Origin: Nitrospirota bacterium
GTDB lineage: Bacteria; Nitrospirota; Nitrospiria; Nitrospirales; Nitrospiraceae
Direction of reading: 5' to 3'
Length of the DNA: 61,984 nucleotides
Assembly: GCA_030684575.1 (NCBI GenBank)
Contig: JAUXVD010000001.1
Coordinates: 1-61,984, forward strand
The notes under the pieces were generated by a model. It worked only from the letters and a program-made list of their open reading frames with translations, had not been told where the DNA came from and ran no database searches. Position numbers and translations under genes: made by a program. Below are positions 5,105 to 45,174 of the stretch, piece after piece (positions within the stretch are counted from its first letter, which is position 1; every line of letters starts with the position of its first letter).

Positions 5105-6535
5105 ATGTACCGTCGTAATATCGGTCACATTTTGTATCCCATCGCCTGCCTTCTGGGACTGTTCATCGTCTATCAAGCCTGGTTCAAACCGACCTACCTC
5201 ATGACGCCGCCACCCAGCCAGCCTGAGACTGTCGTGGAACGGACCACGGAGGCGCCGCCAGAACCGCACTACACAGGTCCCGCCGAACCGGAACAAAAAC
5301 AGACCCGTCTGATCGATCCCTCGGTGGTCCCGGACACGACACATCATGAACTCTTAGAAACGATTCGCGACGAAATCGAAAGAGGAAACATCAAGTCTGC
5401 GGAAACCAAACTCGCCGAGCTGCCTCCGGCTGTCTTATCAGGAGAGAAGACCCGCCCCTACGTGGCCGTGCTCTGGAACAATCTCGGCATTCAACTTGAA
5501 AAGGCCGGCGGGACCTCCGCCTCGGTCTATGCATTCAGAAGGGCCTCGACGTTGGACGATAAAAACCCGACCGTGCATCTCAACCTCGCCCATGCCTTCT
5601 GGGAGCTGCGCGATCCGGCCATGACGCAGAGCTTTCTGGAAAAGCTGGTGGCCCTGGCTCCGAACGAGGCCTTCCCTCATCTGGCCTTAGCCGAACTCTT
5701 TCAGGAACGGGACCGACTCGGTGAGGCCGCCCGCCACCTCGACCAGGCTACCGCCCGCGCAGGCAAAGATCCCGCCGTCCAATCCTATCTGAAAACCGTC
5801 ACGGCCAAAGTCCGCCGAACCGAAAAGAGCGATGCGCGGCTCACCAGCCGGGACAGCACCCACTTTACCGTCAAATTCGACGGGGAAGCCGATCAGGCAA
5901 CCTGGGTCGCCGTGCTGGAAATCCTGGAAGAGGCCTATCGAGAGATCGGACAACGATTCGGACATTTCCCGTCAAAGCCCATCGTCGTCGTCCTGCATGC
6001 TCACGGCACATTCCAATCGGAAACCGGCAGTCCGGCCTGGGCCGATGGACTCTTCGACCCTGTGCTCGGGCGCATCCAAATTCCTACGCAGAACGCCTTG
6101 GTAGACCGTGCCTGGCTCAAGCGGGTGCTGCGGCACGAGTTCGTCCATGCGCTGCTGCACGACCAACAAGGCCCAGCCAGCAGCGCCTTCCCGACCTGGC
6201 TCAATGAGGGGTTAGCGATGGATTTGTCCGAGGATCGCTGGTCGGATCTCGACCGGATGATGAAGCAGGACCATGAGTTGCTTCCTCTGCCTTCCCTAGA
6301 AGGGGCATGGGGAGCATTACCCGCTGAAACCGTCGCCCTCGCGTACCTGGAAGCCAACTCGGCCGTCCGTTATCTCATCGATCGCTTCGGCATGCACCAA
6401 GTACATGGCCTGCTCTCACATCTCAAAGCCGGGCAGGCGCTCTCTGCCGCGATGCAATCGCAGTTATCGCTGTCGTATGAGCAATTCCAGTCTCGGTGGC
6501 TTGATCAGTTACAGGTGCAGGTGAAAAAGAGCTAG
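5105..6535 (+). CDS. Membrane-anchored TPR protein with MA-type zinc metallopeptidase domain
   Basis: 476 residues. One N-terminal membrane segment (IGHILYPIACLLGLFIVY) is followed by a proline-rich linker, a helical TPR-like region (residues ~70-260) and a C-terminal peptidase-MA-like domain. That domain has the zinc motif HEFVH (in RHEFVHALLHD) and downstream WLNEGLAM, whose Glu fits the third ligand of gluzincins. I chose ATG 5105 with upstream AGAGG; a longer frame from 4925 would cover the recG promoter and lacks a sensible N-terminus. It is probably exported with the domain outside the cytoplasm. The substrate is unknown. Confidence 0.7.
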   Translation: MYRRNIGHILYPIACLLGLFIVYQAWFKPTYLMTPPPSQPETVVERTTEAPPEPHYTGPAEPEQKQTRLIDPSVVPDTTHHELLETIRDEIERGNIKSAETKLAELPPAVLSGEKTRPYVAVLWNNLGIQLEKAGGTSASVYAFRRASTLDDKNPTVHLNLAHAFWELRDPAMTQSFLEKLVALAPNEAFPHLALAELFQERDRLGEAARHLDQATARAGKDPAVQSYLKTVTAKVRRTEKSDARLTSRDSTHFTVKFDGEADQATWVAVLEILEEAYREIGQRFGHFPSKPIVVVLHAHGTFQSETGSPAWADGLFDPVLGRIQIPTQNALVDRAWLKRVLRHEFVHALLHDQQGPASSAFPTWLNEGLAMDLSEDRWSDLDRMMKQDHELLPLPSLEGAWGALPAETVALAYLEANSAVRYLIDRFGMHQVHGLLSHLKAGQALSAAMQSQLSLSYEQFQSRWLDQLQVQVKKS

Positions 6536-8758: not shown

Positions 8759-9695
8759 TCCGCGTAAATCCCGCATCCATCAACCAGGCCTTCGTCTCGG
8801 CTGCCGTATAGGTGTTCCCTCGCTCGGTAAACAGCAACATCGAGACCGCGAAGAGACTCGCCTCCTCGGGATGCAGACCTTCCCGATCGTGGAGAAAGGC
8901 ATCCTGAATCAGCAAGCGGCCTCCAGGGTTTAAGGTGGCCAACGCCCGCTGAAATACGGCCTGGTTGTCTTGCGGTGAATAGATGTGGAGGACGTTCGAA
9001 TACCAGATGACATCGTAGGTGCCGGGGATGCGGTCCGTCAGCAGGTCCAAGGGGAGGTAGGAAAGTCTGGCGCCGGCCTTGTGAGTCGCGGCAATCTCCT
9101 TCGCCACGTCGAGGGCTGCGGGACGGTCGCAGACCGTCGCACGAAGTTGCGGGTTCTTTGCAAGGAAGGCCATGGCATAGGTGCCGGGACCGCCGCCAAG
9201 ATCGAGCAGCGTCTGCGCCCCACGCAGGTTGAGTTGAGCGGCAATCTGTGGAGCCGTCTCCAAGGTCCGGTGATGCATGGCCCACGTGAACCGGCGACGA
9301 AAGTCCGGCTCATCCGGCTCATCGTGATCGAGCGGCAGTCCACTCTGTACCGATTCCAACAGACGGCCCCAATCGGCCCAATGGCTCGTCATGAGCCGGA
9401 GATAGTCTCCTCGATAGGCGGGATGCGCTGCGTTCAACGCCGTGGCACCTAATCGGCTGTTCCGGTAGGTTTCGCCTTTCTTCTTCAACAGACCGGCCAT
9501 CGCGAGATTCCGGCAGAGGATCGCCAACCCCCGCTCACTGACCTTCATCTCGTAAGCCAGGGTAGGAATCGTCCAGGTCTTGGTCCCGACAGCCGTACAG
9601 AGATTCAGCTCAAGGGCGGCGATCAGGACTCGCGGCAACCGGTACGCTGTAATGGCATCGCGCAAGTCATCGAATGTCGCGATCTGCCGACTCAC
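8619..9695 (-). CDS. SAM-dependent O-methyltransferase with N-terminal dimerisation domain
   Basis: 358 residues. An N-terminal winged-helix dimerisation domain (AYRLPRVLIAALELNL; then LAYEMKVSERGLAILCRNL) is followed by a class I methyltransferase fold with the SAM motif LLDLGGGPGTYAM (about residue 170), acidic motif II near VCDRP, and NPGGRLLIQDAF. This layout is that of the plant-type/CrtF-BchU O-methyltransferase family, which modifies small hydrophobic molecules. I start at GTG 9695, which overlaps the upstream stop (GTGA). The cluster 8619-11549 (methyltransferase, 145-aa protein, TPR, MBL-fold) is tightly coupled and presumably acts in one unknown pathway. Confidence 0.8.
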   Translation of the reverse strand: MSRQIATFDDLRDAITAYRLPRVLIAALELNLCTAVGTKTWTIPTLAYEMKVSERGLAILCRNLAMAGLLKKKGETYRNSRLGATALNAAHPAYRGDYLRLMTSHWADWGRLLESVQSGLPLDHDEPDEPDFRRRFTWAMHHRTLETAPQIAAQLNLRGAQTLLDLGGGPGTYAMAFLAKNPQLRATVCDRPAALDVAKEIAATHKAGARLSYLPLDLLTDRIPGTYDVIWYSNVLHIYSPQDNQAVFQRALATLNPGGRLLIQDAFLHDREGLHPEEASLFAVSMLLFTERGNTYTAAETKAWLMDAGFTRIKTVRMKKGTEDWEDGILEARSPGMPVKRRVRRTQSATSLRRRSSR

Positions 9696-10129
9696 CGCTC
9701 CACGCCGATCGTCTTCACACACCAACGCATCAAGTCCTGCGCGGCCAGAGGATTGGCCATGTCCACATTTCGTTCAAAGCAGGCCGCCACGTAGTTGTCG
9801 TTCATCTCCGTCCGTTCGGAGAACCCCGATTGCAACAGAATCGCACGGTACTTTGCGACCGCCGGCTGGATGTAGTACTTCGCCTGCTTGGCGATCTCGT
9901 CGGTACCGAGATCCTCCGGCGTCCCATCGGAAAGAAGTGTCATCACATCGTCCAACGCCATCCCATACTGGCAGAGCAGCTTTCCGTCCGGCGTCAGCTC
10001 CAGCAGCCATCCATCGTGACCCAGTTCCATCGCCATCGGACCGCCCGGTTCCAACTCAATTAACCGCGGAAATACAGGGGCCAGCGAGGCCTTAAATGTC
10101 TCCCAGGCTGTAGGGGCTCCAGTACTCAT
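9692..10129 (-). CDS. Hypothetical protein in methyltransferase cluster
   Basis: 145-residue soluble protein with no recognisable motif. It has a beta-rich start (MAMELGHDGWLLELTPDGKLLCQYG) and a helical C-terminal half. Both ends overlap neighbours by 4 bp, so it is translated as part of the TPR/MBL/methyltransferase operon. The context suggests an accessory subunit, but the function is unknown. Confidence 0.6.
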   Translation of the reverse strand: MSTGAPTAWETFKASLAPVFPRLIELEPGGPMAMELGHDGWLLELTPDGKLLCQYGMALDDVMTLLSDGTPEDLGTDEIAKQAKYYIQPAVAKYRAILLQSGFSERTEMNDNYVAACFERNVDMANPLAAQDLMRWCVKTIGVER

Positions 10130-10950
10130 GCGCGCGCCTTTCGATGGGGTGATGAACCGTCCTGCCCGGCAAGGCTGGCACGCAGGGCCGCCAACCGTTG
10201 AATATTCTCTTCGAGTTTCGGCAGCTGGTACTTGCGATCCATCCGCACCACCAGTTCAAGAAGATCTGCCGCCTCTCGCAACTTGCCGGTTTCTTCGTAA
10301 CATTGTGCCAACAGATACCGGGCCCCGCCGGTCCGCAACTCATCGCGCGAACGCTCGGCAATGGACTGGCTGGTCTGGCAGCAGGCAATGGCATCGTCGT
10401 ACCGTTGCTGCATCAAAAATGTTCGCCCGATCATGCGCCAGGCATCGGCCACGCCACCCTGATTCGCTAACCGCCGCATCATGACCAGCGACTGCTCGTA
10501 GTATCCGATTGCCTGGTCGAACTCTTTGGTCTCGCGGGCGACCAAGCCAAGATCCGAAAATAACACCGCTTTGCCCGCCTCATCGTGGACCTTACTCATG
10601 AGATCCAACGCTTCGAGGTAATAGGCCTTGGCACGATCCCATTCGCCCGCATCGGCCCTCAGATTTCCCAAGTTGCCCAGCGTCGTCCCGATCCCCTTCT
10701 CATCCCCCAGAATCTTCTGCAGCTCCAGCACCTCTTGGTAGTAGGTCTGCGCCGACTCACGACGCCCGCTGACCGCACAAATATTCCCGAGATTTCCCAA
10801 CGTGGAGGCTAACGCCCGCTGGTCGCCGGTCAGCCGGTCGCATTCTAAGGCCTTGGCATAACAGGTATAGGCATCGGTATAGAGACCGCGCGAGAAATGC
10901 TCGTTGCCCTGGCGATTGAGTTCTTCGGAAAGTCCGTTCCGTAGCATCAT
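10126..10950 (-). CDS. Tetratricopeptide repeat protein
   Basis: 274 residues made almost wholly of TPR units of about 40 residues, including LASTLGNLGNICAVSGRRESA and GTTLGNLGNLRADAGEWDRA. This is the longer-spaced TPR type seen in Rapsyn/LGN-like and bacterial signalling scaffolds. There is no signal peptide, so it should be cytoplasmic and mediate protein contacts. It overlaps both neighbours by 4 bp in the operon with the MBL-fold protein (upstream) and the 145-residue protein (downstream). Confidence 0.8.
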   Translation of the reverse strand: MMLRNGLSEELNRQGNEHFSRGLYTDAYTCYAKALECDRLTGDQRALASTLGNLGNICAVSGRRESAQTYYQEVLELQKILGDEKGIGTTLGNLGNLRADAGEWDRAKAYYLEALDLMSKVHDEAGKAVLFSDLGLVARETKEFDQAIGYYEQSLVMMRRLANQGGVADAWRMIGRTFLMQQRYDDAIACCQTSQSIAERSRDELRTGGARYLLAQCYEETGKLREAADLLELVVRMDRKYQLPKLEENIQRLAALRASLAGQDGSSPHRKARA

Positions 10951-11549
10951 GATACGGGCTGGAGCAACCGTTCGACCGCCGGCTTGGCGTCGGTAAGAAT
11001 CGACGTCCCGTCGCCGACGAGCAGACTATCGAAGTTGTACTTGAGAAGGCGACGGAGTCCCTCTTGAGCCTTCGTCATGTCGGCGTACTTTTCAGCTGGG
11101 AGCATACTGACAGAGCCGGCCGGTTTTCCGATCAGGGCATCGCCGACAATGAGCACACCTTTCCGCTGTTGAATAAACAGGGCCGACTCACCGGGAGACT
11201 TTTGGTCTTTGAGCTGGATCACCCAGATCCCCCCGATGAGCAATTCCCCATCTTTGAACGTCTTCGACGGCTTGAGATCCATCAGCGGCGCATCCACCTC
11301 CGGCACGTGCAGCTGACAGCGAAACTCATCCTGATACTTCACCGCTTCGCGCACGTGATCGCGATTGGTGACGATGATGTAATCGACGGGACCGTTACGC
11401 AGGATAACCGCACTCGCATCCCCCGTCATTGGAGGAGGGTCGACGAGAATCTTATGTTCCCCGACGGTCAAGAAGAGCCCGTTGAAATCGATCTGCTTCT
11501 CTTCAGAGAACCAGGACCATTGCCAGATACCGGGAAGAATGTTTTTCAT
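10947..11549 (-). CDS. MBL-fold protein with degenerate metal site
   Basis: 200 residues with the overall pattern of metallo-beta-lactamase-fold hydrolases: strand-rich start, VDPPPMTGD, then VDYIIVTNRDHVREA, LIVGDALIG and a C-terminal DSLLVGDGTS. The usual HxHxDH zinc motif appears here as VTNRDH, so the first two histidines are missing and only the DH pair remains. It may have lost hydrolase activity or use a different metal set. It is the first gene of the four-gene coupled cluster. Confidence 0.7.
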   Translation of the reverse strand: MKNILPGIWQWSWFSEEKQIDFNGLFLTVGEHKILVDPPPMTGDASAVILRNGPVDYIIVTNRDHVREAVKYQDEFRCQLHVPEVDAPLMDLKPSKTFKDGELLIGGIWVIQLKDQKSPGESALFIQQRKGVLIVGDALIGKPAGSVSMLPAEKYADMTKAQEGLRRLLKYNFDSLLVGDGTSILTDAKPAVERLLQPVS

Positions 11550-11594
11550 AATAGGATGACAATCGATGACTGATCGTTAATGGCACGGACAAAC

Positions 11595-11834
11595 TTACAA
11601 TGCGGCGACGGCATCGTTCACGACTTTCGTGACTTTCGTCAGGATGCTGGCTTCGTTCGGTAGATCGATAATGTCGTCTTCAGAAATCGTAATAAATTTC
11701 CGATTCGGCCCCTTCGTGAGGGAGATCAGAAACATACTGTTTGAAGGCGTCACAGGAATCACAACCTGCACGGCGGCATCGGCCCCCTTCACCAGCTCCA
11801 AAAACTTCTGTTTGCCCACTTCCATCTCATCCAT
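11595..11834 (-). CDS. Small hypothetical protein
   Basis: 79 residues from ATG 11834 (AGGGAA upstream); the open frame extends to 11924 but that part is low-complexity and without a ribosome site. The central segment MFLISLTKGPNRKFITISEDDIIDLP is well-formed beta-like sequence, followed by an amphipathic C-terminal helix. No family recognised. It lies 45 bp upstream of the MBL-fold gene and may be the leader gene of that operon. Confidence 0.55.
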   Translation of the reverse strand: MDEMEVGKQKFLELVKGADAAVQVVIPVTPSNSMFLISLTKGPNRKFITISEDDIIDLPNEASILTKVTKVVNDAVAAL

Positions 11835-11879
11835 CGTCTTTTCCCTCTTCCTCTCCCTCACGGAAGTCGGCATTGACTC

Positions 11880-11974
11880 GCATTGGGGTTGGGAAATCAT
11901 CGTCTGCGTGCGTCGGACGAGCACCGTTTTGTCGTGCGCGCTCCGCGAGCAGCGGGATTCCTCAGCCGCAATGC
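11880..11974. repeat. Long-hairpin intergenic repeat, copy 1 of 4
   Basis: The core, GCGTGCGTCGGACGAGCACC then CGTGCGCGCTCCGCGAGCA, is shared with copies at 19376-19469, 23459-23554 and 34949-35047. Outer arms GCATTG...TTGGGAAATC and GGATTCCTCAGCCGCAATGC are complementary to each other but differ from those of the other copies. The element fills the gap between the 79-residue gene and the thioredoxin-like gene. Confidence 0.65.
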
Positions 11975-11977
11975 GTC

Positions 11978-12511
11978 TTACATCTTATTGTTTCCGTCGG
12001 CCAACAACTTTTCGACTTCCGCCGCAATCACCGCATCTCCGGCCAGATCCATATTGCCGACACGCTGCCACCGGATGACGCCCTGTTGATCGATCACGTA
12101 GACGTTGGGAATAAACTTCCCACCGCCGTACAATTTATCCGTCACCTTGCTCGGATCGAGCAGATAGGGATAGGTGACTTTCACGGGGAAGGCGGACAGA
12201 AACTCACCGACACTCTTCTTGGAGTCGCCGGACGAATTGACTCCCAGCACCGCAACCTCTTTGCCCTTCATGAGCTCGGACACTTTCTGCAGCGTCGTGC
12301 CCTGCATCATGCAGGGGTCACAGATATGAAATAGCCCGAGGACCACAACCTTTCCCTTATAGCTATCCAGTCCCACGGTCTCGCCCGTAATGGCGGTCAA
12401 CGTAAACGACGGCGCCTTCTCGCCGAGTTTAAACGATCCCGCAGCAAGGACCAGATGAGCCGCAAGGATCGGGGACAACAGCGCGCCCAATACCCACAAT
12501 GTTCGTGTCAT
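11978..12511 (-). CDS. Exported TlpA/AhpC-like thioredoxin-fold protein
   Basis: 177 residues. A hydrophobic signal peptide (TLWVLGALLSPILAAHLVLAA) leads into a peroxiredoxin/TlpA-type fold: GEKAPSFTLTAITGE, KVVVLGLFHICDPCM with the active-site CDPC pair, and NVYVIDQQGVIRW. It is likely a periplasmic thiol-disulfide reductase or cytochrome-maturation helper. ATG 12511 is preceded by GGAGG at 5 bases; a slightly longer frame from 12523 is less likely. The downstream gap is filled by a repeat, so it is probably monocistronic. Confidence 0.82.
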   Translation of the reverse strand: MTRTLWVLGALLSPILAAHLVLAAGSFKLGEKAPSFTLTAITGETVGLDSYKGKVVVLGLFHICDPCMMQGTTLQKVSELMKGKEVAVLGVNSSGDSKKSVGEFLSAFPVKVTYPYLLDPSKVTDKLYGGGKFIPNVYVIDQQGVIRWQRVGNMDLAGDAVIAAEVEKLLADGNNKM

Positions 12512-31797: not shown

Positions 31798-34068
31798 ATG
31801 ACGGATGAACCGGGAACCCGCGAATCCCTGCTCAAGACCTTGGCCCCCCTCTGTCCTGATGTCGAGGATGAGGTGCTGCGGGACTTCGTGTCACGGATGG
31901 ATGCCGAGTATTTCGAGCGGTTTCAACCGAATGCCATCGCGCAGCATATCAAGCTTGCCGACAAACTCACCCCGGAGCACCCCTGCGAACTCTCGGTGCT
32001 CGACCGGCAAGCAGGGCAATCGGAAATCAGCCTCGTCGCCTACGACTACTTCTCAGAATTTGCCACGATCTGCGGCCTGCTCTCCGCCTTCGGCCTGAAT
32101 ATCGAAGAAGGACGCATCTACACCTTTGCCGATGTGGCAGCCCAGCCGGCTCGGCCAGCCTCAGCCGGGCCATCGAAACGGCCCAAAGGCCGCCCCGGCC
32201 TGAGCCGCAAGAAGATCGTCGATGTCTTTCTCGTACATCCGGTGAATGGCGAGCGCTTCTCTACGCCGGAACGGACCGCTCTCGCAGAGGCGCTCACCCA
32301 CATGATCCAGCTACTCGACAACGGACAATTCGAAGAGGTCCGCCAACAAGTGAACCGCAGGCTGGTCGAACGGTTGGGGAAACAACGGAGCGCCTTCACC
32401 GGGCTCCTCCATACCGTCCAGATCACCTTCGATAACAGTCAGTCCCAGGCGGACACGATCATGGACATCCGGTCGGATGACACCCCGGCCTTCCTCTATG
32501 CCTTCGCCAATGCCCTGGCCATGCGCAACATCTACATCACCAAGGCCCAGTTTGAAAACGACGGGACCAAGCTCCATGACCGTTTCCACGTCAGAAATCG
32601 TTATGGGAAAAAGCTCCTCGATCCGGACGATCAACAACAGCTGCGCCTGACCGCCGTGCTCATCAAACAATTCACCCATGCCCTGACCTGGGCTCCCGAC
32701 CCTGGCAAGGCGCTCGAATCGTTCGACCAGTTCCTGGACCTGATCGTCCAGGATACTGGGAAGAAGGCCAAGAGCCAGGCGCTCGATTTCCTGAGCGACA
32801 AGAGAAGCTTTCCCGTCTTGGCCCGCCTGCTGGGCGCGAGCGACTTCCTGTGGGAAGACTTTCTGCGCCGCCAGCATAACAACCTGCTCTCGATGCTCGC
32901 GGAATATCGGGATGCGCCCCTCATCAAGCCACGGGCCACCCTCCGGAAAGAGCTCGACCGGCTGGTAGCCCGCGCCAAAACAGACGAGACGCGCAAGGAA
33001 GCTCTGAACCAGTTTAAGGATCGCGAACTCTTCCGGATCGACATGAAACATATCGTAGAGCCGTCGAGTCCTCTGCCTGATTTTTCGCTCGCGCTCACGG
33101 AACTGGCCGAGGTCATCATGGAACGGAGCCTCGCCGATTGCCGCGCCAAGCTGGAGAAGACCTATGGAAAGCCGAAGCTTGACGACAAAACCGCCTGCCC
33201 CTATGCCGTCCTCGGCCTGGGGAAATTAGGAGGGCGTGAGCTCGGCTATGCCTCGGATATCGAGGTGCTGTTCATCTATGAGGGATCGGGCAAGACCAGC
33301 GGGAAGAAGAGCATTGGGAACAGCGAATTCTTCGAACGGCTGACGCAGGAACTCCTAGGCTGGATCGAGGCCAAGCAGGAAGGCATCTTTCATCTCGACG
33401 TGCGATTGCGCCCGCATGGAGGCAAGGGCTTCCTGGCCAATGCCTTCGAGGAAGTCTGCCGCTACTACAGTCCGACCGGACTCGCCGCACCCTACGAACG
33501 GCAAGCCCTCATCAAGCTGCGGCATATCGCCGGCGACGCTGCATTGGGCCATCGACTGGAGGCCTACCGGGATTCGTTCGTCTATGGCGGCGCCCCCTGG
33601 GACATCCCCACGGCACTGGACCTCCGGAAGCAACAACTCCAACAACTGGTCAAGCCGGGACAGGTCAACGTGAAGTATAGCCAGGGCGGGGTCATCGATA
33701 TCGAATATGCCGTGCAGTATCTCCAAGTGATGCATGGGCACAAACGCCCGAGCCTGCGCACCCCGAATACCCTGCAGGCACTCGCCGCACTGGTCGAGGC
33801 AGGATTGGTTTCGCGCGCCGATGGGGAGAGCCTCCGGAAAGCCTATGTCTTCACGAGAACCTTGATCGATGGATTGCGCATGGTGCGAGGCAATGCCAAG
33901 GATCTCGTCCTCCCTCCGCCTGACTCAGAGGAGTTTATCTTTCTCGCCCGCCGTGTCGGCTACGCGACAGATGATTGGCAGGCAGGAGCGAAGCATCTGC
34001 AGACGGATATCGAGGAGCACATGAAGCTGACAAAAGAATTCTACGAACGGACATTCGGGCGTCTATAG
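31798..34068 (+). CDS. ACT-domain protein with GlnE-like nucleotidyltransferase, adenylyltransferase-type half
   Basis: 756 residues. Residues ~60-185 look like a GlnD-type ACT domain (ISLVAYDYFSEFATICGLLSAFGLNI; later VDVFLVHPVNGERF). The C-terminal half has VLGLGKLGGRELGYASDIEVLF, LDVRLRPHGGKGF and VNVKYSQGGVIDIEYAVQYL, closest to the C-terminal (adenylylating) half of GlnE. The usual DxD of the nucleotidyltransferase is DIE here, an Asp to Glu change. An ACT domain could bind an amino acid such as glutamine directly. It is divergent from the other half-size GlnE with 66 bp between starts. Confidence 0.75.
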   Translation: MTDEPGTRESLLKTLAPLCPDVEDEVLRDFVSRMDAEYFERFQPNAIAQHIKLADKLTPEHPCELSVLDRQAGQSEISLVAYDYFSEFATICGLLSAFGLNIEEGRIYTFADVAAQPARPASAGPSKRPKGRPGLSRKKIVDVFLVHPVNGERFSTPERTALAEALTHMIQLLDNGQFEEVRQQVNRRLVERLGKQRSAFTGLLHTVQITFDNSQSQADTIMDIRSDDTPAFLYAFANALAMRNIYITKAQFENDGTKLHDRFHVRNRYGKKLLDPDDQQQLRLTAVLIKQFTHALTWAPDPGKALESFDQFLDLIVQDTGKKAKSQALDFLSDKRSFPVLARLLGASDFLWEDFLRRQHNNLLSMLAEYRDAPLIKPRATLRKELDRLVARAKTDETRKEALNQFKDRELFRIDMKHIVEPSSPLPDFSLALTELAEVIMERSLADCRAKLEKTYGKPKLDDKTACPYAVLGLGKLGGRELGYASDIEVLFIYEGSGKTSGKKSIGNSEFFERLTQELLGWIEAKQEGIFHLDVRLRPHGGKGFLANAFEEVCRYYSPTGLAAPYERQALIKLRHIAGDAALGHRLEAYRDSFVYGGAPWDIPTALDLRKQQLQQLVKPGQVNVKYSQGGVIDIEYAVQYLQVMHGHKRPSLRTPNTLQALAALVEAGLVSRADGESLRKAYVFTRTLIDGLRMVRGNAKDLVLPPPDSEEFIFLARRVGYATDDWQAGAKHLQTDIEEHMKLTKEFYERTFGRL

Positions 34069-34392: not shown

Positions 34393-34671
34393 ATGAGATT
34401 TACCAACGTTCGCGAACTCAAAGCCAAAACATCTGAAATGCTCAGAACGGTCGAACAAGGGAACACCGTGCTGGTGACCACCCATGGACGCCCGACGGCG
34501 ATGCTGGTGCCGGTGACAGAAGACGATATCGAGGACGCCTTGCTGGCCTATAGCCCGACCCTTCGAAAGAAAATTGAAGCGGGCCTCAAGGACATCCGCG
34601 AGAGCCGAACCATGCTGCTGGCTGACTACAAAGCCACGCGCGCAAAGAAAAAGAAGGCGCGCACTGCGTGA
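34393..34671 (+). CDS. Phd/YefM-family antitoxin
   Basis: 92 residues. MRFTNVRELKAKTSEMLRTVEQGNTVLVTTHGRPTAMLVPV is the DNA-binding N-terminal domain of Phd/YefM antitoxins, which represses its own operon. The C-terminal tail (LKDIRESRTMLLADYKATRAKKKK) is the toxin-binding part. AAGGGAA precedes the ATG. It overlaps the toxin gene by 4 bp (GTGA). Confidence 0.88.
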   Translation: MRFTNVRELKAKTSEMLRTVEQGNTVLVTTHGRPTAMLVPVTEDDIEDALLAYSPTLRKKIEAGLKDIRESRTMLLADYKATRAKKKKARTA

Positions 34672-34934
34672 CCTGCCAAATCTTTCTCTCCGAGAAAGCG
34701 CAACGTGACCTCGACACCTTCTCCGATAAGATCGCCAATCAAATTCTCGCCGACTGCGCCCGCCTCGCCGACAATGCCATTCCAGACGGAAAACGGATCA
34801 AGAAGCTGCACGGATTCAAAGAAACGTTGTATCGCTTGAGGGCGGGCGACTACCGAGTGGTGTTCAAACGATCCGGCACTCGCATCGACATCGTGCGAGT
34901 CCTGAGCAAGCCAGACTTTCAGAAGGCCTATTAA
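34668..34934 (+). CDS. RelE/ParE-family toxin
   Basis: 88 residues starting at GTG 34668 inside the antitoxin stop. The compact RelE fold is indicated by MTCQIFLSEKAQRDLDTF, IKKLHGFKETLYRLRAGDYRVVF and the C-terminal beta strand IDIVRVLSKPDF. Members cut mRNA at the ribosome (RelE type) or poison gyrase (ParE type); sequence alone does not decide, although LYRLRAGDYRVVF is more RelE-like. Confidence 0.87.
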   Translation: MTCQIFLSEKAQRDLDTFSDKIANQILADCARLADNAIPDGKRIKKLHGFKETLYRLRAGDYRVVFKRSGTRIDIVRVLSKPDFQKAY

Positions 34935-37382: not shown

Positions 37383-38489
37383 ATGAAGCACGAAAAGCGA
37401 ATGTCGGTTGCCATTGTCGGAGGCGGACTTGCGGGCTTATATGCTGCGCGGCGGCTTCAGGCGCTTGGCATCGGCTTCCAACTGTTCGAGGCCCGTGATC
37501 GGCTTGGCGGTCGCATTCTCTCCGCCAACGACATGGGTCAATCTTCGAACGATGGCTTTGACCTTGGCCCTTCATGGTTCTGGCCGGAGATGCATCGAAG
37601 TATGGCGGCTCTCGTTAAAGAGTTGGGTCTTGCGACCTTTCCCCAACATCGCGATGGAGATGTGGTCGTTGAACAGATGTCGCGTGAAGAGCCGAGACGT
37701 TATCAGGGAATGCCACAAGAGCCTCCATCAATGCGTTTTGCTGGTGGAACCGGGGCATTAATTCAGGCCCTTTCCGATACGCTCCCCCCAGAAGCATTGC
37801 GGCTCGGCATGCATGTGCGCCATGCGACGCTCACCAGCTCTGATATCCTGTTAACAATCGTAGCCCCCAACGGGACTGAGCATGAAGTCGCGGCGGAGCA
37901 GGTGATCTTCGCGCTTCCACCACGCCTGCTCGCCTCATCGGTGTCCTTTACCCCTGACATCGAACCGGCCACAGCACGTCGCTGGCGCGACACGGCGACA
38001 TGGATGGCGCCCCACGCGAAGTTTTTCGCGCTCTACCGGCAGCCCTTTTGGCGCGAAGCCGGGTTGTCTGGAACGGCTCAAAGCCTGGTGGGCCCTCTTG
38101 CCGAAATACATGATGCCACCACGGCCTCGGGCATGCCGGCCCTCTTTGGATTTCTTGGCATAGGCGCGGACCAGCGAGCAGTCCTAGGAGAAGGTGCGCT
38201 CACGCATGCCTGCCTTGAACAACTCACTCGACTGTTTGGACCGGAAGCCGGACGACCTTACGCCACGCTCCTCAAGGACTGGGCCGCAGATCCTCTCACT
38301 GCGACAGCAGCAGACCGTTCACCAAGCGGGCATCCCGAACCTACACGAACGTCCTGGGTGAATGGTGTCTGGAAAGACCGTCTGTTTCTTGCTGGCAGCG
38401 AAACAAGTACCACGGCGCCTGGCTACTTGGCCGGAGCCATTGCAGCAGCCGAACGGGCCGTCATTGAAATACAGGGTAGCAGGGAATAA
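37383..38489 (+). CDS. FAD-dependent flavin amine oxidase
   Basis: 368 residues. The N-terminal dinucleotide-binding motif is VAIVGGGLAGLYAARRL with the following FEARDRLGGRI (FAD site), and the C-terminus closes the FAD site with LFLAGSETSTTAPGYLAGAIAAAERA. This is the monoamine oxidase/amine oxidase family; the substrate (amine, polyamine or other) is unknown. It is shorter than eukaryotic MAO. It lies in the accessory region between repeats, not in an operon. Confidence 0.85.
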   Translation: MKHEKRMSVAIVGGGLAGLYAARRLQALGIGFQLFEARDRLGGRILSANDMGQSSNDGFDLGPSWFWPEMHRSMAALVKELGLATFPQHRDGDVVVEQMSREEPRRYQGMPQEPPSMRFAGGTGALIQALSDTLPPEALRLGMHVRHATLTSSDILLTIVAPNGTEHEVAAEQVIFALPPRLLASSVSFTPDIEPATARRWRDTATWMAPHAKFFALYRQPFWREAGLSGTAQSLVGPLAEIHDATTASGMPALFGFLGIGADQRAVLGEGALTHACLEQLTRLFGPEAGRPYATLLKDWAADPLTATAADRSPSGHPEPTRTSWVNGVWKDRLFLAGSETSTTAPGYLAGAIAAAERAVIEIQGSRE

Positions 38490-38575
38490 TTGGGGGTAGG
38501 CTGAGTGGTGACCTATAGGAAACGAGGGCAGGCCTTGTAATCAAACATCAAGAGGCGGCGCGGGGCTGTGGCTGG

Positions 38576-38681
38576 GGCTCAGAGCGGACATCGCCGGAGG
38601 AGCGGGGTCCCGGTCGAGGCTCGGCTGAAAAAGAAAGCGGAAACCGACCGAGTCTGCGAGGGAATGTCCAAAGGCTGCCGC
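38576..38681 (+). repeat. Nested-palindrome repeat, copy A
   Basis: Most divergent copy of a three-member family with B (39972-40076) and C (41218-41322), all in the same direction. Shared blocks are ACATCGCCGGAGGAG, GCGAGGGAATGTCC and GGCTGCCGC. The central hairpin seen in B and C is decayed here. It lies just upstream of the Old Yellow Enzyme gene. Confidence 0.6.
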
Positions 38682-38822
38682 TGTACGCCGGGACGGACGC
38701 AGTTGAACAATACCTCCACCTGGCGTCTCCCCATGCATCTCAATCTGTTGCCTTGACTCCCTCACCATCCCGCCTATACGTTCTCTCACCTACGATTCAT
38801 CTGCTATGCAAAGGAACGCCCA

Positions 38823-39896
38823 ATGACCACGTTGTTCACCCCGCTGCAGGCCGGGGACATCCACATACCCAACCGCATCGTCATGTCGCCACTCACCAGG
38901 GCGAGAGCCGGCCCCACACACATTCCCAACGACATGATGGTGGACTACTACTCCCAACGGGCTTCGAGCGGGCTCATCATGACGGAATGCACCATGGTCG
39001 ATGCCCATGCCTGCGCCTTCATCGGTGAAGGCGGCATATACAGCCCCGCGCACGTGGACGGCTGGTCACGAGTGACAGATGCCGTGCATGACAGGGGTGG
39101 CCGCATCTTCATGCAGATCTGGCATCCCGGTCGTGCCGCGCACTCGTTGTTGAACGGGGGCGAGCAACCGGTCTCCAGCAGCGCCACAGCAATTCGCAAT
39201 GGTGGGACCAAGACCCCGGAGGGCGCCACGCCCTACGAAGTCCCCCGCGCGATCCGCACCGAGGAAATGCCGCGGTATGTGGAGATGTTTCGGCTCGCCG
39301 CGCAGAACGCCCAGCGGGCAGGCTTCGACGGGGTGCAAATCCATGGTGCGCACGGTTATTTGGTCGACACCTTTCTCCGTGACGGCGTCAACGTACGCAC
39401 GGATGCCTATGGGGGCTCTGTGCCCAACCGAGCCCGTTTTCTGCTCGAGGTGATGGATGCCGTTATCGGCGTCTGGGGTGCCGGGCGCGTCGCGGTCCGG
39501 ATCTCGCCCCTGGTCCCGTTCAACGACATGGTCGACAGCCAACCCGAAATGCTGGTGACCTATGTGGCGCAGGAATTGAGCCGACGAACGATCGCGTTCC
39601 TCGAAATACGGCACGAGGACCATGCCTTGCCTGAGGAGCAAGCCATCCTGACGATCGCCCGCCGACATTTCCAGGGGGTCTTGATGAGCAACGGGAGCTA
39701 CACACGTGAGAGCGGCGAATCGATGGTGGCATGCGGAGCGGCCGATGCAATCGTGTACGGGCGTCCGTACATCGCCAACCCGGACCTGGTCGAACGCTTC
39801 GCGAAACAGGCCCGGCTCAACGAGGTCAACTATGATCGGCTCTATGGTGGTGGACCAGACGGCTACAGCGACTATCCCGCCCTGGCCGCAAGCTGA
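38823..39896 (+). CDS. Old Yellow Enzyme family alkene reductase
   Basis: 357 residues; FMN- and NAD(P)H-dependent reductase of activated C=C bonds, NemA/OYE family. LFTPLQAGDIHIPNRIVMSPLTRAR starts the TIM barrel. RIFMQIWHPGRAAHS and the substrate-binding pair in VQIHGAHGYLVDTFL follow, then GVLMSNGSY, and ADAIVYGRPYIANPDLVERF ends it. Likely detoxifies electrophiles. Flanked by copies A and B of the nested-palindrome repeat, suggesting acquisition as a unit. Confidence 0.92.
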   Translation: MTTLFTPLQAGDIHIPNRIVMSPLTRARAGPTHIPNDMMVDYYSQRASSGLIMTECTMVDAHACAFIGEGGIYSPAHVDGWSRVTDAVHDRGGRIFMQIWHPGRAAHSLLNGGEQPVSSSATAIRNGGTKTPEGATPYEVPRAIRTEEMPRYVEMFRLAAQNAQRAGFDGVQIHGAHGYLVDTFLRDGVNVRTDAYGGSVPNRARFLLEVMDAVIGVWGAGRVAVRISPLVPFNDMVDSQPEMLVTYVAQELSRRTIAFLEIRHEDHALPEEQAILTIARRHFQGVLMSNGSYTRESGESMVACGAADAIVYGRPYIANPDLVERFAKQARLNEVNYDRLYGGGPDGYSDYPALAAS

Positions 39897-39971
39897 ATCC
39901 CCATTACGACGGGCCAATAGGAAAATGGGATGAGGGTCGTTGCTTGACCTTGCACCTCGACGAAAGACTGC

Positions 39972-40076
39972 GGCTCAGGTCTGACATCGCCGGAGGAGTG
40001 AGGCCCAGTCGAGTGTCCGCTGAGATGGACAGCGGACACTGACTGAGCCTTCGAGTGAATTTCCGAAAGCTGCCGC
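39972..40076 (+). repeat. Nested-palindrome repeat, copy B
   Basis: 105 bp, about nine positions in ten identical to copy C. Nested pairing: GACTGCGGC/GCCGCAGAGTC at the outside (39966-40082), GGCTCAG/CTGAGCC inside that, and a perfect central hairpin GTGTCCGCTG/CAGCGGACAC with a 7-base loop (40013-40039). It lies downstream of the OYE gene. Confidence 0.7.
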
Positions 40077-40234
40077 AGAGTCAAACATGTCCTTCCTAGA
40101 GACGCGGGAGCCGGTGAGCCTCAGCCCCACGTAGATGAGTCGAAACTAAAAAGCGGTCCAAGAGAAACGGCGATCCTTCCCGAGTGCCCGACGTCCTGCA
40201 ACCTCGACCGTCCACATTTCGCGACGCGCGTCGT

Positions 40235-40316
40235 CCCACCTCTCGCGCAATACACGCATTTTCAATTTCAGCCCGTTGACACTTTTATTCCAGAAAAGTA
40301 GCCTGTCTGCATTCTC
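40235..40316 (+). repeat. TTGACA...AGAAAAGTAGCCTGT direct repeat, copy 2
   Basis: Matches copy 1 (37167-37245): CCCACC, CTCG, CACGCAT, then TTGACA (40276-40281) and AGAAAAGTAGCCTGT at the same 16-base spacing. The two copies bracket about 3.07 kb with the amine oxidase and OYE genes. The rest of the 40077-40502 gap has only a short frame ending KQLKEELAVGSAKY (stop near 40380) that may be a gene remnant. Confidence 0.5.
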
Positions 40317-40502
40317 AGCGTCCGGACAACATTTGCAAGCAGTTAAAAGAAGAACTGGCTGTTGGCTCGGCGAAATACTGAGGAGTCGCCATTCGCGCGA
40401 TCATTGAATAACGTAACAAGATCGGCTGGGTCGTATTATTAGTGGCAGCTGGCAGCGAAGGGGACGCCGCGCTAGAACCTCCCCCAATTCTCATCCGCAG
40501 TA

Positions 40503-41066
40503 TTGTTTGGCCTAAACCTCTCAGGTCCTAGTCTTTACATGGAACCAGAATACTTCTTTCTACTCCTCAGCATTGGGTTACTAGGAATTCCAGTTGATGT
40601 GTACGTCACGGAGGATCACATGAAAAAGTTAGACGCATTGACCCAGTCGATATTGGCTGCAGTCATGATTTCAATAGCGGTGTTTCTGGTTTTTTGGATA
40701 TGGGCCTTCTCTGATTATGCAAACCTTCAAGCGTTTGTGAAAGATCAACAATTTCCTTTGTTGGCACTCGTGGTAGCTCTTGGCGCCTATACCAGCAGTG
40801 TAGAGCAAAAACTTCGAGAAACTGCAACGCAAAGGAAGAAGTTGTCGCTGCCCGCAACTGACCTCGAAGAAGATCTCAAAAGGCTGTATGTGGTGGATGG
40901 CCTTTTGATGCTAACCGGAGTCACGGTCATGTTCCGGATCATTTGGTGGATTCATAGCCCAAAAGACGTAAGCCCTTCGCCGCTCATCGATTGCTTGATG
41001 CTCGGCATGCTAGCGGTGAGTATTTTGTATTTTGCATGGTTACATATATTGCAATGGAAGAAGTGA
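40503..41066 (+). CDS. Hypothetical membrane protein
   Basis: 187 residues with about five hydrophobic segments (EYFFLLLSIGLLGIPVDVYV; ILAAVMISIAVFLVFWIWAF; FPLLALVVALGAYTS; LLMLTGVTVMFRIIWWI; CLMLGMLAVSILYFAWL). Base composition is poorer in GC than the core genes. The first codon is ATG? no: the frame opens at TTG 40503, and the internal ATG 40539 (MEPEYFFLL) is a good alternative start. No family recognised. Flanked by repeat copies B and C. Confidence 0.5.
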   Translation: MFGLNLSGPSLYMEPEYFFLLLSIGLLGIPVDVYVTEDHMKKLDALTQSILAAVMISIAVFLVFWIWAFSDYANLQAFVKDQQFPLLALVVALGAYTSSVEQKLRETATQRKKLSLPATDLEEDLKRLYVVDGLLMLTGVTVMFRIIWWIHSPKDVSPSPLIDCLMLGMLAVSILYFAWLHILQWKK

Positions 41067-41217
41067 GAAAGTGCGTTGTGTCGCATTTGGCAATACCATC
41101 GGAGAGTTTGGGAGACAAACGAAGGGATCGGGAGTCTTTTCTGATTGCCCGGCGTGATGCAATCCCGAACGAAGATTGAGAGTCAGATCTTGCAATCCAA
41201 CATCAAGGGGTTTCGTG

Positions 41218-41322
41218 GGCTCAGGTCTGACGTCGCCGGAGATGTGGGGCTCCGTCGAATGTCCGCTGAGATGGACAGCGGACACTGACAGAGCCCGCGA
41301 GGGAATTTCGGAAAGCTGCCGC
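41218..41322 (+). repeat. Nested-palindrome repeat, copy C
   Basis: 105 bp, closely matching copy B. Central hairpin TGTCCGCTG/CAGCGGACA with the same AGATGGA loop, an outer GGCTC/GAGCC pair and a further GTTTC/GAAAC pair outside. It lies about 150 bp downstream of the membrane protein gene, just as copy B follows the OYE gene. Confidence 0.7.
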
Positions 41323-41493
41323 TGCTGAAACATACCGCTACTTGGCAGAAGAAATGTAGTCAGGCCTGAGTATTGACTTATTTGTGAGCGGAACACCTGC
41401 GCGACGACTGCCGAGCGCATGGCGCAAGGGAGATACCACGTGGAATCAGGCCTTTGCCGGCTGACGGACCTATTGTCTCGTCCCTACCGGGGG

Positions 41494-43611: not shown

Positions 43612-45174
43612 TCACACTGCCATTGTGGTCGGCGTCTCTTTGGCTGGTGCAGGTTTCTTGGCTCCTCCACCCCGCACCCGATGCATCTTCTCCCGCGAAT
43701 GGTAGGGCACCAATCCTTCCAACACCATCGGCAGCCTGTCGCAGGGCACATCTTCCATGATCTTGACCGCCAGCTTCGAGTCTGGCCCTGAGCGGCCTCC
43801 CACGTAGATATCGACCGCATCGACCACCTTCCCCTCGACCTTGGCCTTCTTTCCCAAGAACCCGATATCCGCCACGAGATGATTCCCGCAGGCAGCGGGA
43901 CAGCCGGACCAATGCATGGTGATCGGTTTGAGCGCGCTCCCCAGGCGGGCCTCCAGCGCCTTCGCCGTTTCGACTGCCCGGCTCTTCGTTTCGATGACCG
44001 CCAGATTACAGTAGTCGCTCCCCACACAGCTCACCAGCCCCTTGTAGACCGGTGAGGGGTTATAGGCGAATTGCTTCACCAGCGGCTCCTGGTCGAGGTC
44101 GCCGATCTTGCGATCGGAGACGTTCGGTATGATCAAGGCTTGCGCCGGGGAAATCCTGACCTCCCCCGTTCCATACTTCTCTGCCAAGGCTGCGATCTTG
44201 GCTAAGTCGTCATGCGTAATACGGCCCACCAGGACTTTGAGCCCCACATAGTTCATACCCGGTTGTCTTTGCCGATAGATGCCGACATGGCTCTTCTCGA
44301 CGGCTTTTCGCGCATCGATGCCCGCCGGCGATAGTTTCTTGCCCACTCGCGTTTCGACTTCCTTTCGGAACCGGTCTTCACCCCATTCCTCCAACAGGAA
44401 GGCCAATCGGACCTGCGTACGATTCTCCCGCGATCCATGGTCCCGAAAGATCTCTATGATCGCGCGGCACAGGGCCAAGGCTTCGCCCTCGGTCACAAAG
44501 ATGTCGAGCGGCGTCGCGATCCGGTACCCGCCCGAGCCAAGTTTACCGCCAGCCAAGAGGTTGTACCCGAGGCTCTTACCGTTGGTGCCATCGTGATAGG
44601 CCGGCACGAGGGCCAGGTCTTGTGTTTCCATGTGCACACAGTTGTCCGGGCAGCCTGTCACCGCGACGTTGAACTTCCGTGGCAGGTTCGAATAGGCCGG
44701 ATTGCCAAGAATCTCTTCGTTGATGGCGCGCACGATGGGCGTCGCATCCGACAGTTCCTCCGGACTCAACCCGGCCACCGGGCAAGTCATCACGCCCCGC
44801 ACGTTGTCCATGCCGGTTTGGAGGGAGGTCAGCCCCACTTCCTCCATCTTGGCAAAGACCGCCGGCACGTCTTCAATCCGGATGTGCCGGAGCTGTATTT
44901 GTTGCCGTGTCGTCAGGTCCAACACCCCGTTGCCGTAGGTCCCGGCAATCTCGGCCAGAGCCCGCAGTTGATAGGAGCCGGTCTTGCCGCCCGGTATCCG
45001 CACCCGGATCATGAAAAACCCCGGCGTAGGATTCCGCAGAAAGAGGCCATACCATTTGAGGCGCTGAACATCAGCCTCGGGGATGGATTCCCAGCCACTC
45101 TTGGCATATTGGGCGATCATGTCCCGCACAGCCAACCCGTCGCGCTCCGTCTTGATGGCCTCGATTTTGTTCAT
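43612..45174 (-). CDS. nirA: Ferredoxin-nitrite reductase
   Basis: 520 residues; assimilatory six-electron reduction of nitrite to ammonium with sirohaem and a 4Fe-4S cluster. The cluster/sirohaem ligands are the four Cys in CVGSDYCNLAVIETKSRA and HWSGCPAACGNHLVADIGF. The nitrite/sulfite reductase half-domains appear twice (GVLDLTTRQQIQLRHIRIED; ... EVRISPAQALIIPNV). The ferredoxin-dependent type lacks the NADPH flavoprotein domain. Its ATG overlaps the small winged-helix gene by 4 bp. It provides ammonium for biomass when nitrite is the nitrogen source. Confidence 0.93.
   Translation of the reverse strand: MNKIEAIKTERDGLAVRDMIAQYAKSGWESIPEADVQRLKWYGLFLRNPTPGFFMIRVRIPGGKTGSYQLRALAEIAGTYGNGVLDLTTRQQIQLRHIRIEDVPAVFAKMEEVGLTSLQTGMDNVRGVMTCPVAGLSPEELSDATPIVRAINEEILGNPAYSNLPRKFNVAVTGCPDNCVHMETQDLALVPAYHDGTNGKSLGYNLLAGGKLGSGGYRIATPLDIFVTEGEALALCRAIIEIFRDHGSRENRTQVRLAFLLEEWGEDRFRKEVETRVGKKLSPAGIDARKAVEKSHVGIYRQRQPGMNYVGLKVLVGRITHDDLAKIAALAEKYGTGEVRISPAQALIIPNVSDRKIGDLDQEPLVKQFAYNPSPVYKGLVSCVGSDYCNLAVIETKSRAVETAKALEARLGSALKPITMHWSGCPAACGNHLVADIGFLGKKAKVEGKVVDAVDIYVGGRSGPDSKLAVKIMEDVPCDRLPMVLEGLVPYHSREKMHRVRGGGAKKPAPAKETPTTMAV

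Follow-up and report, generated by a model that had tools for sequence, protein, structure and literature searches.

The window analysed here is a stretch of 61,984 nucleotides from a Nitrospirota genome of 3.79 Mb in 23 contigs, and it contains a variable interval bounded by glnE and a nirA-like reductase gene (Table 1). Within this interval, three copies of one repeat family, which we call A, B, and C, alternate with a flavin oxidoreductase gene and an ORF for which a Pfam search gave no match. Gene calls came from a codon-score script rather than a standard gene finder and are approximate; the script missed the amine oxidase gene upstream of A. An earlier note on this DNA had described three repeats in the same direction, B and C being nearly identical and B containing a perfect hairpin, and we found all of this to be accurate: the repeats are 105 nt each, all are on the forward strand, and the hairpin is exact. 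Over the 105 nt, ungapped identity to copy B is 60% for A, 100% for B itself, and 89% for C, and with gapped blastn it is 78% between A and B, 75% between A and C, and 86% over 117 nt between B and C (E 1e-29).

Table 1. Repeat copies, hairpins, flank motifs, and genes of the glnE-nirA interval, in window positions.
Feature	Position	Strand	Remarks
glnE	31798..34068	+	left boundary of the variable interval with A-C
flavin amine oxidase gene (PF01593)	37383..38489	+	upstream of A
flank motif beside A	38528..38549	+	3 mismatches to the searched motif
copy A, decayed member	38559..38723	+	5' arm and apical core still identifiable, divergent 3' arm; 46.6 bits, filters off
105-nt repeat of A	38577..38681	+	
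NADH:flavin oxidoreductase gene (PF00724)	38823..39896	+	between A and B
copy B, decayed member	39960..40131	+	outer arms both partly kept, inner 3' arm gone; 58.9 bits
105-nt repeat of B	39972..40076	+	
perfect hairpin in B	40013..40039	+	GTGTCCGCTG 40013-40022 pairs with CAGCGGACAC 40030-40039
187-aa ORF	40503..41066	+	between B and C; membrane-protein-like by eye
flank motif beside C	41183..41204	+	2 mismatches to the searched motif
copy C, decayed member	41211..41333	+	derived hairpin of B present; 33.9 bits
105-nt repeat of C	41218..41322	+	
hairpin in C	41260..41285	+	TGTCCGCTG 41260-41268 / CAGCGGACAC 41276-41285
nirA-like reductase gene	43612..45174	-	right boundary of the variable interval; name from reading the sequence

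Intact copies elsewhere in the window genome reach 155 bits with the covariance model described below, compared with the scores of A, B, and C in Table 1, and much of the 3' half of all three is lost or diverged relative to intact members. The hairpin in B arose from the inner 5' arm of the family, now paired with an altered apical core, and C keeps 9 of the 10 letters of its 5' arm and the complete 3' arm. In the alignment, the ortholog of B in another genome (G017) does not have this derived hairpin, so its presence in both B and C indicates that one arose as a local copy of the other, after that change. Folding z scores against dinucleotide shuffles are -5.7 on both strands for B, and -2.9 (forward) and -4.6 (reverse) for C. 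For A they are -0.1 (forward) and 0.3 (reverse), indicating that present-day A folds no better than chance. Our best reading is that all three copies are remnants in a hot spot for accessory genes, B and C being connected by a local duplication.

Alignment showed that the repeat as first described is part of a larger unit, and that intact copies run on into a complementary 3' half. Intact members are about 185 nt long, a 140-nt core extended by about 25 nt upstream and 20 nt downstream, and they form a rod with an outer stem (P1), purine-rich internal loops, a 12-bp inner stem, and a conserved apical core, GGAAAGCGGAAACTGACYGAGTCYGCGARGGAATTTCCGAAGGCTTCC. The sequence of P1 differs at most loci while its self-complementarity is kept, and the apical core and purine internal loops are invariant across genera. 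In 28 sequences, 91.2% of the cells in the structure are paired and 25 of 44 pairs show two-sided changes. The covariation score for this set is 0.293, a value reached by none of 500 shuffles (mean 0.135), and it falls to 0.05-0.085 when the partners are slid by 1-3 columns. One strand of the unit is thus a long rod whose stems are held by compensatory change. Palindrome self-correction could by itself generate some of the covariation, chiefly that of the outer stem, but it would be expected to erase conserved unpaired loops as well, and the loops persist.

There is a second form of the unit with an additional hairpin in the apical loop, which we surveyed in the 80 listed of 98 stretches matching the core pattern. 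In several loci it is close to a copy of the first form, often in the opposite orientation. In contig C8 of the window genome (L194, at 9545-12179 and 5851-6081), a cluster of toxin-antitoxin-type genes (Gp49, HTH, BrnA, NTP_transf_2/HepT, and Unstab_antitox) surrounds two decayed second-form copies. Other long palindromes, of the GGTGACAGGTC / GACCTGTCACC type, were seen in the same intergenic regions (L155 800-1000, L141 4080-4160, and L109 2690-2740) and are apparently a separate repeat.

A blastn search with copy B found further copies in the window genome and copies in 26 of 61 genomes, the window genome included. The covariance model (R1) marks 11 places in the window genome at E <=1, nine of them at <=0.001, with A, B, and C among the weaker. 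Across the bacterial family it finds the unit in 73 of 118 genomes, which represent 19 of 22 genera, and the highest count in any one genome is 21. When we counted and mapped the copies in this way, as the earlier note had proposed, they proved to be mostly single and dispersed. In a sample of the phylum 45 of 295 genomes match, of which 43 belong to the same bacterial family and two to family f20. A degenerate pattern of the core occurs in 98 stretches among 84,980 species genomes, and among the matches listed (80 of the 98) the titles are Nitrospira-type in 79 cases and Methylomirabilis in one. The core pattern was absent from viral contigs, and the C16 copy of the window genome had no blastn match in phages or plasmids. 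None of 15 loci matched an Rfam 15 covariance model at the gathering score, and relaxing the E-values gave only sub-threshold chance hits. We found no publication describing an element of this kind in Nitrospira among the literature matches listed, nor in passages of PMC12306157 (which counts generic REPs in N. moscoviensis), PMC9029176, and PMC2864571. The family is best read as an uncatalogued, lineage-specific element of Nitrospirota that is structured, non-coding, and dispersed between genes.

Clustering of neighbouring proteins showed the unit at the same site in several species. Shared sites lie at the 3' ends of an FGE-sulfatase-domain gene, trpD (Glycos_transf_3), a YchF GTPase gene, a GATase_5 gene, an NtrC-like regulator gene, and, in two genera, a succinyl-CoA-synthetase-type gene; another lies upstream of a SelR gene (domains are from Pfam, and we assigned the common gene names). 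The clearest shared locus, near carB and an SAM hydroxide adenosyltransferase gene, is found in six species. In 17 ortholog pairs, hand-picked from the available loci as a subset of the possible pairs, identity across the 140-nt core is 85.6-99.3%. Over the upstream 100 nt it is 47.8-57.0% in 13 of the 17, compared with a shuffled level of 45-53%; in the remaining four the flank is conserved too. The unit is therefore constrained in place at many shared sites while its flanks are not. The C3 copy of the window genome is 95.7% identical to its ortholog in G017 versus 85% to the C16 copy of its own genome, and orthologs being more alike than paralogs argues against copy-to-copy homogenisation. 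We had considered the near-identical group-1 copies (L182-L190) to be recent transpositions, but the flanks of L182, L183, L184, L186, L187, and L190 identify these as one orthologous locus.

Which strand folds can be judged from mismatched pairs. G-U outnumbers A-C by 115 to 48 cells in 90 aligned hits, and by 89 to 32 when one sequence is taken per neighbour cluster (n=65), the inner stem alone giving 32 to 5. The excess is weaker, 62 to 43, in a strand-neutral count of 30 sequences, and an earlier vote-based count showed no G-U/A-C bias (85 to 93). The excess of G-U over A-C suggests that the forward form, as aligned, is likely the folded strand, whether as RNA or as single-stranded DNA. 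Gene context, counted after de-duplication, is also asymmetric. Neighbours on the 3' side have their stop codon toward the unit in 48 of 66 distinct cases (P 0.0003), 20 of these within 30 nt of the core, and there is no such preference on the 5' side (34 of 72). For start codons on the 3' side, 8 of 18 distances fall within 73-117 nt. Where the neighbouring genes are in tandem, the folding strand is antisense to them in 32 cases and sense in 14, and this antisense majority counts against a plain 3'-UTR model.

These patterns would also fit a family of independent small non-coding RNA genes, each copy transcribed alone from the forward strand and acting in trans together with a protein that binds the apical core. 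The G-U preference of the forward strand, the invariance of the apical core and purine loops across genera, and conservation at orthologous loci would all be expected of such genes, and in 8 of 87 units the forward strand has a run of five Ts immediately beyond the 3' arm, versus 1.9% of random stretches (the 87 units, used for all motif and T-run counts here, are the 90 hits minus three near a locus edge). However, no conserved promoter is visible upstream of the unit when ortholog flanks are compared, since identity falls to chance just outside the unit. It would be unusual for a trans-acting RNA to have as many as 21 copies whose stems diverge, and for several copies the distance to the start of a neighbour that is read away from the copy is 13-67 nt, in a set that includes duplicate loci and ortholog repeats. 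We consider such genes a rather improbable explanation.

Copies at different loci and in different species match from about -25 to +160 and no further, and a discrete unit is dispersed to many unrelated intergenic sites. In one genome of family f20 (G188), the 126-nt cores of two loci (L275 and L276) are identical but lie in unrelated flanks, and although the outer arms of these loci differ, each outer arm pair is still near-perfectly complementary. The outermost arm motif occurs 19 times in G188 (control, 0); among 15 of these loci searched, the model matches 13 at E <=10, the thirteenth at chance level. Several G188 copies hold further nested insertions. A second short sequence, around TTGCATTGAGCGAAGCGAAAAAA, is nested at the same place in L282, L287, L288, L289, and L291, and L284 has a different nested hairpin.

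These observations allow a bolder reading, which we put forward only tentatively, that the family is a phylum-specific class of mobile structured RNA. It would have a core that folds on one strand, set between long palindromic arms that remain complementary while their middle segment varies in length and letters, and many Nitrospira copies would have been domesticated into constrained cis elements at the ends of operons. If this is true, the identical G188 cores between unrelated but near-perfect arms would mean that each arm serves as template for the other in a hairpin-primed replication step based on RNA or single-stranded DNA.

We think it unlikely, more so than the trans-acting RNA, that the unit acts solely as folded single-stranded DNA, recognised by a strand-specific transposase or recombinase in the manner of RAYT, IS200/IS605, or integrons, with no role as RNA. 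Strand-specific folding would also be expected from such a substrate, and the identical G188 cores with long, near-perfect outer arms suit it. So may the flank motifs beside A and C, which resemble the sequence preceding the only Y1_Tnp (RAYT-type) gene of the window genome. However, only 6 of 87 units have the flank motif upstream, and constraint at the level of the host at orthologous sites is left unaccounted for. Nor does copy number follow the number of Y1_Tnp genes: one genome (G035) has 21 copies and no such gene and another (G106) has 12 genes and no copies, and we rejected RAYT as the general mobiliser. A reverse transcriptase partner was rejected as well, RVT_1 being present in 35 of 118 genomes, with high-copy genomes such as G005, G026, and G035 not among them.

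The order A-gene-B-gene-C in the window had led the earlier note to compare it to a cassette-like array. On this view the repeats would be recombination sites that flank and move accessory genes. In G017, the flavin oxidoreductase gene and B are 87% identical to the window over 1353 nt in a match that begins just past copy A, and toxin-antitoxin-type accessory genes lie near several copies, both of which favour that proposal. The G017 interval between glnE and nirA contains the counterpart of B and a second copy, each scoring about 110 bits, and that of G011 contains one copy. Nevertheless, the cassette reading fails because the copies are mostly single, attC boxes are lacking, and the interval varies without the element, and we regard it as very improbable. 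The attC 7-mers RYYYAAC and GTTRRRY are absent from B and C, with one half-match in A, and occur together in 2 of 87 units. Repeat-gene-repeat tandem arrays are rare among the copies, the window and G017 being the clear exceptions seen, and the repeats are largely scattered, many of them beside housekeeping genes and at positions shared between species, rather than tied to accessory genes. The gene content of the interval does vary between species, but it also varies in L227, L228, L229, and L240, where the covariance model finds no copy. The same note's broader suggestion of a structured RNA or mobile unit fared better: for the family, covariation, purine loops, and the G-U excess strongly support the former, and the latter is supported in part, by units of about 185 nt at many unrelated sites and by the identical G188 cores.

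The glnE-nirA interval has further features of its own. The 3' end of glnE is duplicated downstream of the gene in L227 (3031-3211 and 3556-3744), L228 (1532-1693), and L229 (3571-3765), where the duplicates flank Fic-like genes or their remnants (named from reading the sequence), an arrangement suggestive of integration at that end of the gene. An antitoxin/toxin pair, Phd/RelE-like by eye, at 34393-34934 in the window is 98-99% identical to one at 6924-7465 in L240 (genome G003), while the adjoining glnE fragment is 92% identical between the two genomes, below the value for the pair. A 42-nt motif (GGGATCGGGAGTCTTTTCTGATTGCCCGGCGTGATGCAATCC-like) at 41122-41163 in the window was also seen in L189, L180, and L086, near group-1 copies but not always on the same side.

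Oversized intrinsic transcription terminators would account for strong hairpins placed right after stop codons, but with a T-run on the strand of the ending gene in 1 of 87 units, and a size and conserved core that far exceed those of a terminator, they are a highly doubtful explanation.

We consider it somewhat more probable than not (roughly 0.55) that the three window copies derive, as relics, from a folded intergenic element that spread in the manner of ERIC, that many of its copies are retained for an effect in cis, and that these three are now decaying. The unit would have spread as a non-autonomous, MITE- or ERIC-like element moved by some enzyme. We infer that the folded transcript may have a role in cis: many copies would be retained because the folded form acts where operons end or genes meet, and the most probable mode of action would be a transcribed hairpin with an influence on 3'-end processing, stability, or read-through. 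In the accessory hot spot between glnE and nirA, copies may have been released from this constraint and be decaying.

Nitrospira are globally important nitrifiers, and to our knowledge little is known about their RNA biology. Because a genome can hold as many as 21 copies of this uncatalogued, covarying element, and many of them stay at the same gene ends in different species and some even in different genera, the copies provide natural replicates for studying what such repeats do and how they move. The covariance model together with the list of ortholog sites makes both questions testable.

Several known systems resemble the element in part. HEARO, the IscB omega-RNA, is a mobile-element-like structured RNA of similar size, but the Nitrospira element, searched with 15 loci, has no gathering-score match to it or to other Rfam RNAs. 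Integron attC sites, like the repeats in the window, are folded palindromes beside accessory genes; the Nitrospira element differs in lacking a conserved box pair and in occurring mostly as dispersed single copies. REP and BIME sequences, with their RAYT (Y1_Tnp) proteins, are likewise palindromic, extragenic, and near stop codons, and two window copies have flank motifs that may be RAYT-like, but the Nitrospira element is much longer, has a multi-loop fold, and does not follow Y1_Tnp numbers. As a kind of element it is most like ERIC, the enterobacterial intergenic repeat units, which are dispersed imperfect palindromes of 100-200 nt with a conserved centre and an unsettled spreading agent. 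The likeness is one of description, both being dispersed, intergenic, imperfectly palindromic, and non-coding, whereas the Nitrospira element belongs to an unrelated lineage and has covarying stems and orthologous copies that are constrained in place.
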